64,000 bases of DNA from Apostichopus japonicus (taxonomy: Eukaryota > Echinodermata > Holothuroidea > Aspidochirotida > Stichopodidae), in contig NC_092580.1 in NCBI RefSeq assembly GCF_037975245.1, positions 17,494,001 to 17,558,000 of the forward strand, read 5' to 3'. Position numbers and translations under genes: made by a program. Numbering within the stretch: position 1 is the first letter of the stretch; the number at the start of each line of letters is the position of its first letter. Under the pieces are notes generated by a model that saw only the letters and a program-made list of their open reading frames with translations, did not search any database and was not told where the DNA came from. Below are positions 12,185 through 51,924 of the stretch, piece after piece.

Positions 12185-27817
<15,633 letters not shown>

Positions 27818-50018: not shown

Positions 50019-50036
50019 TCTTCCCAGAATATTCAG
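50019..50036 (+). promoter_or_regulatory. Splice acceptor-like site just upstream of the HypX-like ATG
   Basis: ATTTTCTTCCCAG ends at 50027, twelve bases before the ATG at 50039. It has the pyrimidine tract and CAG of a 3' splice site and would place the gene's only intron in its 5' UTR. An ATTCAG at 50031-50036 is a poorer alternative. Confidence 0.5.
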
Positions 50037-50038
50037 CG

Positions 50039-51862
50039 ATGGCTAATCTATTACATACAACGACTATTAGGGCAATTCGAGATACAGTTCTGCGATCTTC
50101 GAAAATTTACAAATCTTCCGCAATTGAATTACAACGTAACACTGTTCCACTAGCTCAAACAGCTGCAGGTGAAAGAAGCCTCGACATTATGTTTTTCGTT
50201 CAAAAACATAACAGTTTAAGCCAAAGAGTCGCTCAAGAGTTGACTGAGAAGAACCATCAAATCTCCGTACATGAGATTTCTAACAGCGATGAAATGAAAA
50301 CATTAACTACCAAGAAAAATCCAGATCTTATCTTGTGTCCTTTCCTGACAAAACGTGTCCCAGATGAAGTCTACATGAACCCTGTTACCCCCTGCCTTAT
50401 TGTTCATCCTGGCATTGAAGGGGACAGGGGCATGACATCAATTGACTGGGCCCTGAAAGAGAATGCTGGGTCTTGGGGTGTTACCGTGATGCAGGCTGAT
50501 AAAGTCATGGATGCTGGGGACATCTGGAGCACAAGGAATTTTCAAATTAATCGACCAAACATCAACTCGTTGACCAAATCTAGTCTTTATGTCAATGAAG
50601 TGACCAACGCAGCTGTAGAGGCTTGCTTACAAGCAGTGGATAACTTTTTGAATAACATTGCACCCAGGTCTCTCGACTATGCTATGGCACACGTTCATGG
50701 GAGACTCAGACCAACCATGAAGAAATCAGACCGTCAAATCGACTGGGAACAACCTGCAGAAGATGTTGCACGCCAAGTACGGATGTCTGATTCGTCACCA
50801 GGAGCTATGGCAAGTGTCAAGCAATCGAATGGCGAAAGTAAATGGTCCGATAAAATGAGGGTCTTTGGGGCACACATCGAAGAACTTGGTCTCGAGAACT
50901 CCAAGGGTGCGCCTGGAGAAGTCTTAGGACAACGTGATGACGCCATTCTGGTTAAATGCGGAGAAGGCTCTGTTTGGCTTTCTCATTTGAAGAAGGACAA
51001 ACTGAAACTACCTGCAACGTCTTGGTTGAAGAACATGGATATTCCTCAACTACCTGCCCCGTCTGTTGAGGTTCCTCATGGGATGTTTCCGAAGACTTTT
51101 CAAGAAATTTGGACCACAGTTAGCCCGAGAGGAGTATGCCATGTCAATTTTGATTTTTACAACGGAGCAATGAGCACAGGCCAGTGTCGGCGTTTGGATT
51201 ACGTACTCTCAGAAGTAGGGAAGGACGAAAGGGTGAAAGTTATCGTTCTGAAAGGTGGCTTGAACTTTTTCAGTAACGGAATTCATCTCAACGTCATCGA
51301 AAGTTGTCAAGATCCCTCCGAAGAATCCTGGAGAAATATCAACGCCATCAACGATGTTGTACAACGTATATTCATGAGTGATAAAGTTACAATCTCAGCA
51401 GTACGTGGCAACGCTGGAGCTGGGGGAGCTATGGTGGCTCTAGCGAGCGACTTTACCCTTGCACGCGAAGGGGTAGTTTTCAACCCACATTATCGCACGA
51501 TGCATTTGTTTGGTTCGGAATACCATACATACTTCCTTCCAAATAAGGTAGGCAAAGCTAAAGCAGAACAACTATTGAACAATGCGGTTCCAATGCTCTC
51601 CAACGAAGCGGTTCGCATTGGATTCGTGGATGGCGCTTGTGGTAGAACACATCAGGATTTTGAAGCTTTCGTAGAAGATGTGGCCAATAAAGTTGCTAGC
51701 CCATCGATTATGAAAGAGGTATTGAAAAGTAAAGAGAGGAACAAAACTAGCCAGTGGTTGAATAGCCTGCAGAAACACAGAGCACACGAATTAGAAAAGA
51801 TGGCCTCAAATTTTCAAAGCAATGACTATCATCAGGCTAGGAAGTCCTTTGTATATCATTAG
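50039..51862 (+). CDS. HypX/HoxX-like formyltransferase-crotonase fusion, single coding exon
   Basis: The 607-aa protein matches bacterial HypX/HoxX from end to end. Residues 1-47 are an extra basic/hydroxylated N-terminus. Residues 48-215 are a formyltransferase-like Rossmann domain with HPGIEGDRG (123-131) and VMQADKVMDAGDIW (150-163), keeping the His and Asp expected of the formyltransferase site. Residues 220-325 are the formyltransferase C-terminal-like domain (HGRLRP, IDWEQPA). Residues 350-560 are crotonase-like, with FDFYNGAMST (371-380), SNGIHLN (412-418), ESWRNINA (429-436), the oxyanion-hole type GNAGAGGAM (457-465) and NPHYRTM...GSEY (482-495). In bacteria HypX takes the formyl group of formyl-tetrahydrofolate to CoA and releases CO for the [NiFe] hydrogenase centre. 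From memory of that work, a Tyr and a Glu act in CO release; Y485 and E494 are the likely counterparts, one residue closer than in bacteria. The function in an animal is unknown. The start is the first ATG, in good context (GCGATGG). Confidence 0.93.
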   Translation: MANLLHTTTIRAIRDTVLRSSKIYKSSAIELQRNTVPLAQTAAGERSLDIMFFVQKHNSLSQRVAQELTEKNHQISVHEISNSDEMKTLTTKKNPDLILCPFLTKRVPDEVYMNPVTPCLIVHPGIEGDRGMTSIDWALKENAGSWGVTVMQADKVMDAGDIWSTRNFQINRPNINSLTKSSLYVNEVTNAAVEACLQAVDNFLNNIAPRSLDYAMAHVHGRLRPTMKKSDRQIDWEQPAEDVARQVRMSDSSPGAMASVKQSNGESKWSDKMRVFGAHIEELGLENSKGAPGEVLGQRDDAILVKCGEGSVWLSHLKKDKLKLPATSWLKNMDIPQLPAPSVEVPHGMFPKTFQEIWTTVSPRGVCHVNFDFYNGAMSTGQCRRLDYVLSEVGKDERVKVIVLKGGLNFFSNGIHLNVIESCQDPSEESWRNINAINDVVQRIFMSDKVTISAVRGNAGAGGAMVALASDFTLAREGVVFNPHYRTMHLFGSEYHTYFLPNKVGKAKAEQLLNNAVPMLSNEAVRIGFVDGACGRTHQDFEAFVEDVANKVASPSIMKEVLKSKERNKTSQWLNSLQKHRAHELEKMASNFQSNDYHQARKSFVYH

Positions 51863-51918: not shown

Positions 51919-51924
51919 AATAAA
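51919..51924 (+). terminator. Polyadenylation signal AATAAA of the HypX-like gene
   Basis: AATAAA occurs 57 nt after the stop codon, giving a very short 3' UTR. Its presence supports the ORF being a eukaryotic gene rather than bacterial contamination. Confidence 0.65.

Follow-up and report, generated by a model that had tools for sequence, protein, structure and literature searches.

A HypX-type gene in the Apostichopus japonicus genome

The 64,000-nucleotide stretch of Apostichopus japonicus DNA analysed here (the window, to which all positions refer) contains at 50039..51862 a real and complete HypX-type gene, located in an animal genome. The ORF listing of the window gives a 628-codon open frame around the gene, which in a 64-kb stretch otherwise poor in ORFs (two of at least 150 aa, the second of 168 aa) is far beyond chance. 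A pseudogene reading was rejected, as the frame is open and the conserved residues are kept. The gene and its flanking signals are the following:

50039..51862, + strand: HypX-like gene, single coding exon, 607 aa (ORF with ATG start, matching Aquifex HypX)
50026..50027, + strand: candidate 3' splice acceptor AG, ttttcttcccag, with a pyrimidine tract before it (by eye)
51919..51924, + strand: AATAAA, candidate polyadenylation signal, 57 bases past the stop codon (by eye)

The AG of the candidate acceptor, as located by eye, ends 11 bases upstream of the ATG and would imply an untranslated exon upstream of the coding exon; together with the AATAAA, it would fit a eukaryotic gene whose coding part lies in one exon. 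A search of the genome (671,581,487 bases in 35 contigs) with the protein rendered one match, at 50039..51862, and the locus is found 17.5 Mb into contig 20 of the assembly. The gene is therefore deep inside a large contig, which excludes a small contaminant contig as its source.

None of the ten open fragments scanned, out of 338 of at least 55 aa elsewhere in the window, gave a Pfam match at the curated level, so that no functional context for the gene is provided by the window. On the reverse strand, positions 24127-24462 resemble by eye the end of a LINE-type reverse transcriptase, as expected in animal genomes, and the proline- and serine-rich open fragments at about 12188-12772 and 15198-16008 look like exons of a neighbouring gene; no Pfam match was obtained for any of them.

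Domain organisation and predicted fold

Three Pfam families, each above its curated cut-off, were detected in the order in which they occur in HypX, preceded by an N-terminal extension:

50039..50179, + strand: 47-residue N-terminal extension, perhaps a mitochondrial presequence (composition, model)
50279..50551, + strand: formyltransferase N-domain Formyl_trans_N (10-formyl-folate site), residues 81-171 (Pfam)
50717..51031, + strand: formyltransferase C-domain Formyl_trans_C, residues 227-331 (Pfam)
51161..51853, + strand: crotonase-fold domain ECH_1 (putative formyl-CoA decarbonylase half), residues 375-605 (Pfam)

A phmmer search of PDB sequences matched Aquifex HypX at E 6.6e-117 over residues 48-605 of the 607, in line with the first-pass annotation, which had described both halves of HypX in order in the 607-aa ORF; the motifs that it cited (HPG...DRG, MDAG, DFYNGAMST, SNGIHLN, GNAGAGG and GSEY) are all present in the translation. 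The AlphaFold2 model of the protein, based on a 60-row alignment, reached a pLDDT of 92.3 and a pTM of 0.91, and Foldseek ranks 1-8 were all occupied by Aquifex HypX chains, with TM of 0.83-0.84 by query, 2.0-2.4 Å and 38-39% identity across 573-576 columns (for 6j0p_B, TM 0.84 by query, 0.90 by target, 2.2 Å). The other 42 Foldseek matches listed covered about one half of the protein or were full-length ArnA superposed at more than 20 Å. The predicted fold is that of the Aquifex HypX crystal structure across both domains, and the protein is supported as a true two-domain HypX/HoxX, with the formyltransferase half followed by the crotonase half in one chain.

Several other assignments were considered. 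A chance joining of separate methionyl-tRNA formyltransferase (Fmt) or ECH enzymes was rejected by the full-length phmmer and fold matches to HypX; the best matches could, as the first-pass annotation had considered, have been separate formyltransferases and crotonases only, and what was found is the full fusion, conserved in the relatives. Fmt itself scored below the cut-off (TIGR00460, 59.7 bits versus 201.5), and no NCBIfam enoyl-CoA hydratase model exceeded its cut-off among the 25 families listed of 62 matched. The formyltransferase half is related to the hydrolase domain of 10-formyl-THF dehydrogenase (4qpd_A, E 1e-13 with phmmer; rank 19 among the fold matches), and an identification as ALDH1L was rejected, since an aldehyde dehydrogenase domain was not among the four Pfam families found. 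ALDH1L, Fmt and the ArnA formyltransferases share with the window protein the folate-binding formyltransferase half, whereas in the latter the crotonase half replaces their other parts. The HypX/HoxX proteins of Aquifex aeolicus (PDB 6j0p, 6j1e-6j1j) and Cupriavidus necator have the same domain order and the same His/Asp/Asp and Tyr/Glu residues, and the overall fold is also common, the structural comparison having been made with Aquifex. The window protein differs from both in its animal host, its N-terminal extension, Val185 and Ser253 at the CoA site, its separate clade and the lack of a known hydrogenase partner.

Catalytic and CoA-site residues

The accessible part of PMC6802093 proposes that, in Aquifex HypX, His74, Asp80 and Asp109 act in formyl transfer and Tyr416 and Glu426 in decarbonylation, and describes that Tyr and Glu mutants of R. 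eutropha show a HypX-minus phenotype. All five residues are kept in the window protein, as judged from the phmmer alignment to Aquifex HypX, and their conservation was followed in a 297-row alignment of the window protein, 216 related proteins and 80 bacterial loci, a set with some duplicates:

50405..50407, + strand: His123 (Aquifex His74, formyl transfer), His in all 294 rows that have a residue there, 3 gaps
50423..50425, + strand: Asp129 (Aquifex Asp80, formyl transfer), 294 of 294 rows, 3 gaps
50510..50512, + strand: Asp158 (Aquifex Asp109, formyl transfer), 295 of 295 rows, 2 gaps
51491..51493, + strand: Tyr485 (Aquifex Tyr416, decarbonylation), Tyr in 274 of 294 rows, Thr in 20, 3 gaps
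51518..51520, + strand: Glu494 (Aquifex Glu426, decarbonylation), 294 of 294 rows, 3 gaps

Tyr485 and Glu494 were moreover invariant in alignments of 21 and 60 rows, including the eukaryotic ones. The 12 Thr-containing rows examined by name, out of 20, all fall in one clade, and half of them are Bacteroidota loci (L016, L017, L018, L023, L028 and L031), the other six being unnamed rows. Rows of this kind include P0129 and P0135. HypD is encoded close to HypX in all six loci, even though the Tyr is replaced; for HypX of this Bacteroidota type, the catalytic model may have to be revised.

The CoA contacts described for Aquifex in the accessible part of PMC6802093 were mapped by hand on the phmmer alignment. 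Q15, S194 and N306 are kept in the window protein, R9, R131 and Q195 correspond to Lys56, Val185 and Ser253, respectively, and R542 falls outside the alignment. Hence, regarding the possible loss of folate- and CoA-site residues raised in the first-pass annotation, the five catalytic residues have been retained and the CoA contacts only in part, which does not overturn the HypX reading; the structural modelling against Aquifex HypX that it called for recovered the fold.

The N-terminal extension

The first 40 residues of the window protein include 6 R/K, 2 D/E and 9 S/T, and the model places a helix at residues 2-20, with pLDDT of 58-83 in this block and below 50 at residues 29-42. The amphipathicity of this region was not significant, since 62 of 500 shuffles reached its hydrophobic moment, and the corresponding extensions in the Hydra, Bradysia and Togula rows have 5, 8 and 0 residues. 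These features are only suggestive of a mitochondrial presequence on the window protein.

Distribution and phylogeny of eukaryotic HypX

The relatives considered are 216 proteins taken from three lists. Among the matches listed there are cnidarians and a placozoan (Nematostella, Oculina, Montipora, Pocillopora, Actinostola, Hydra and Trichoplax), bilaterians (several Branchiostoma, the nemertean Tubulanus, the annelid Owenia, the tardigrade Hypsibius and the fly Bradysia), the rotifers Adineta and Didymodactylos, members of the plant line (the moss Ceratodon, the liverwort Calypogeia and Chara), and other eukaryotes such as the brown alga Ascophyllum, Chrysoparadoxa and the dinoflagellate Togula. 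Some eukaryotic relatives do carry the name 'hydrogenase maturation factor HoxX-like', as had been anticipated.

In a FastTree phylogeny of 222 rows, from which Pocillopora and Actinostola were left out as too short, all eukaryote-named rows fell into one 107-row set (support 99) with no bacterial-named rows and with some unnamed ones, several of them from JGI. The comparison with bacterial HypX proposed in the first-pass annotation gave the same picture in a tree of 60 rows, in which the eukaryote-holding set was split from bacteria with support 100/99 and an animal clade of cnidarians, Trichoplax, amphioxus, nemertean and annelid was recovered with 100/99. The window protein grouped with Nematostella (98/89) in the latter tree, Nematostella and corals being its nearest named rows. 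If the JGI rows P0080 and P0085 are counted as bacteria, eukaryotes need two changes instead of one. In neither tree does the main animal clade include the rows of the fly, the tardigrade and the rotifers, and therefore losses, transfers or hidden paralogues have also occurred.

The intron-free coding region and the bacterial name of the family could raise the suspicion that the gene is a contaminant, belongs to a symbiont or was recently transferred from bacteria. Such an origin is rejected as practically inconceivable, given the position of the locus at 17.5 Mb in contig 20 of a 35-contig, 671.6-Mb assembly, the grouping with Nematostella and corals inside well-supported eukaryote-holding and animal sets, and the candidate acceptor and AATAAA seen by eye.

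FolD fusions

According to precomputed Pfam assignments, one or both FolD domains are present in 16 of the 216 relatives among the matches listed. Ten of these fusions were re-scanned, and all ten had both FolD domains C-terminal to the HypX part. Fourteen of the 16 are included in the 222-row tree, all of them in the eukaryote-holding set and outside the main animal and plant clades. The fusions, found in a brown alga, a dinoflagellate, rotifers and unnamed eukaryotes, have the HypX part in common with the window protein, whereas the latter has no FolD part and would need a separate MTHFD/FolD enzyme. FolD makes 10-formyl-THF, which is the substrate of HypX, and therefore the fusion joins consecutive steps. 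As far as can be judged from sequence, the fusions support folate-to-formyl flux as the probable function of eukaryotic HypX; in a loose motif inspection of the FolD active sites, the typical motif was absent from several of them.

Genomic neighbourhood of bacterial HypX genes

The bacterial loci compared are the best 80 of 595, each with a stretch of up to 10 kb on either side, often less because of contig ends. The HypD motif GPGCPVC was found near HypX in 32 of the 80, and in a further five, visual inspection suggested clusters of HypE, HypF or hydrogenase subunits. Recognised hydrogenase genes were thus missing nearby in 43 loci, an upper figure, as L056 contains a short hydrogenase-like motif and some contigs, L013 and L029 among them, are short. 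The neighbours scanned in these 43 loci were 144 proteins of less than 1150 aa, encoded within two genes and 2.5 kb of HypX, among which the commonest Pfam family was MHYT (PF03707), with nine proteins, the next one having five.

Of the 175 genes located no more than two places from HypX in the 48 HypD-free loci, 9 contained the MHYT motif, which appeared in 0 of 356 further off (Fisher p = 4e-5, to be read with the relatedness of these genomes in mind, as they are not independent), and in none of the 32 HypD loci. All nine genes are co-directional with HypX, eight of them with gaps of 24-164 bases, and the loci belong to about four lineages (Bacillaceae, Methylococcaceae, other Gammaproteobacteria and Nocardia). 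The HypX-MHYT gene link is real and concerns a minority of loci (9 of 80). Four of the MHYT proteins were scanned singly and showed the architectures MHYT-PAS-GGDEF-EAL, MHYT-PAS-histidine kinase-receiver and, in two cases, MHYT alone. The MHYT protein CoxC senses CO and requires copper, according to the accessible part of PMC11347149, in which HypX is not mentioned. On plasmids, the motif was found in none of the eight stretches examined of 47 matching records; two of the eight contain hydrogenase genes and two carry no annotation. In the bacteria with HypX beside MHYT (Peribacillus, Bacillus, Nocardia, Marinimicrobium and others), in which no recognised hydrogenase genes are nearby, gene order couples HypX to a candidate gas sensor, whereas nothing of this kind can be discerned around the animal gene. 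The HypX-MHYT pairs suggest that some bacteria make CO for sensing, beyond its use for hydrogenase.

Other neighbourhoods were also observed. Sensors other than MHYT proteins, namely two chemotaxis receptors and a GAF protein, lie beside HypX where there are no hydrogenase genes nearby (L024:8406-9974, L022:12637-14145 and L038:5425-6924); a stretch containing the motif HGMxEMHF is common to L022 and L038, is not named by Pfam and is possibly another gas-sensing module. In the methanotrophs (Methylocystis and Methylomonas; L025, L036, L047 and L056), proteins of one cluster directly adjoin HypX; a scan of the L025 member identified an AraC-type regulator that also carries a DJ-1/PfpI domain. 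Three Pseudomonas loci (L071, L075 and L080) have a common cassette 3' of HypX, which starts with a LysR-type regulator (from the family tally) followed by a fatty-acid-hydroxylase and polyketide-cyclase-like protein (scanned in L071). In the Mycetohabitans endofungorum megaplasmid (L084), HypX precedes genes for an acyltransferase, an acyl carrier protein, an acyl-CoA dehydrogenase and an amino acid-ACP ligase, and no hydrogenase genes are annotated in the 9.7-kb stretch, perhaps a natural-product setting.

Proposed reaction and role

Bacterial HypX converts 10-formyl-THF and CoA into formyl-CoA and this into CO, as described in the accessible part of a review (PMC12134894). The window protein likely carries out this same reaction, releasing CO and THF, because every proposed catalytic residue is kept. 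The N-terminal half would move the formyl group from 10-formyl-tetrahydrofolate to a tightly bound CoA, and the C-terminal half would split formyl-CoA into CO and CoA, the net reaction being 10-formyl-THF to THF and CO. In eukaryotes it would run without hydrogenase, and its formyl groups could come from serine by way of methylene-THF and a FolD/MTHFD enzyme, which in some lineages is fused to HypX. The leaving product would be CO, not an iron cofactor, that is, a gaseous product or a signal, and in siphonophores probably float gas. We are less sure of the role of this CO (a signal or secreted gas, or the waste of a folate safety valve) than of the reaction, and both this role and a mitochondrial site of the animal enzyme are what we infer. 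It is possible, although we hold it tentatively, that eukaryotes have possessed from early on a dedicated CO pathway independent of haem oxygenase, in which serine would give methylene-THF, then 10-formyl-THF by FolD/MTHFD enzymes, some of them fused, and finally CO by HypX, and that this CO fills, or came to fill, gas floats of cnidarians and brown algae (the siphonophore pneumatophore and the kelp bulb) and acts elsewhere as an endogenous signal, on the pattern of the bacterial HypX-MHYT pairs.

With a comparable and equally tentative likelihood, HypX could be a one-carbon safety valve, freeing THF from surplus 10-formyl-THF as ALDH1L does, with CO as waste; the reaction would be common to both readings, and only the role would differ. 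The kinship of the N-terminal half with the hydrolase domain of 10-formyl-THF dehydrogenase speaks for such a valve, as do the tie to folate flux implied by the FolD fusions and the methanotroph homologues, which adjoin the one-cluster regulators and have no MHYT motif in the stretch. The association with MHYT in other bacteria argues against it, and, in our judgement, producing a toxic gas would be a costly way of recycling folate when ALDH1L or PurU would do.

It can also be the case that the eukaryotic enzyme stops at formyl-CoA or diverts it, acting as a formyl-CoA hydrolase or a formyl donor. Two of the six CoA-site residues mapped by hand differ outright, and the crotonase fold is in general chemically versatile; however, the decarbonylation pair Tyr485 and Glu494 is invariant in the smaller alignments, eukaryotes included, and the Thr replacement, in 20 of 294 rows, was traced in the 12 rows examined by name to the clade of the Bacteroidota loci, so that we consider this diversion unlikely. 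Even less credible, indeed very improbable, is a maturation factor that gives CO to some iron-carbonyl enzyme in eukaryotes. Hydrogenase maturation is the only role of the family known to be proven, but we know of no [NiFe]-hydrogenase or HypCD scaffold in animals, and many bacterial homologues are also devoid of hyp genes nearby. Of the maturase label given in the first-pass annotation, the two-domain HypX in an animal thus stands, and the hydrogenase-maturation role is unlikely because animals are not known to possess [NiFe]-hydrogenase.

CO-filled floats

Serine is reported to be the carbon source of float CO and antifolates to block its production, and folic acid derivatives reportedly occur in the Physalia gas gland, to judge from the title of a cited work. 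Hydra is a hydrozoan, like siphonophores, and the presence of HypX in Hydra and in brown algae makes it a candidate for the enzyme behind the float CO of siphonophores and, perhaps, of kelps. No CO float is known in Hydra, anemones or corals; float gas would therefore not be the ancestral role, and buoyancy would be a later use. No siphonophore-named HypX is present among the 216 relatives listed, and no Nereocystis-named one among the matches listed, which do include a partial protein (P0149) whose JGI code we take to be that of Undaria, a kelp without gas bladders.

The gas-gland cells of Physalia make float CO, and other siphonophore gas glands secrete it, according to the accessible parts of PMC6820529 and PMC3916360. 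CO, secreted there into the float, is the proposed product of HypX; no enzyme is named in those parts, and the link to the window protein is that of a candidate. Two further siphonophore papers contain no mention of carbon monoxide, hydrogenase, HoxX or folate (PMC13327316) or of carbon monoxide, hydrogenase, folate or formyl (PMC8844502). For kelps, the literature searched, in its accessible parts, yielded no more than a second-hand remark on high CO in the Nereocystis bulb (PMC9601103). Neither animal HypX nor a link between HypX and floats was found in the literature searched, mostly open-access and represented by titles and abstract openings; the same holds for an assay of a eukaryotic HypX in the literature searched and for eukaryotic HypX biology in the open-access literature.

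A possible second source of CO

The protein family and its database names were already known, and what is new is a HypX in animals without known hydrogenase and with FolD-fused sisters; the FolD fusions, the bacterial HypX genes beside MHYT and the link to CO-filled floats go beyond the first-pass annotation. Textbooks attribute the regulated formation of CO in animals to haem oxygenase. A HypX conserved in cnidarians, placozoans, amphioxus, worms, a tardigrade, rotifers, mosses and brown algae would point to a second, folate-based source of CO, and it makes an old puzzle of siphonophore biology, the enzyme behind the CO of the float, directly testable.
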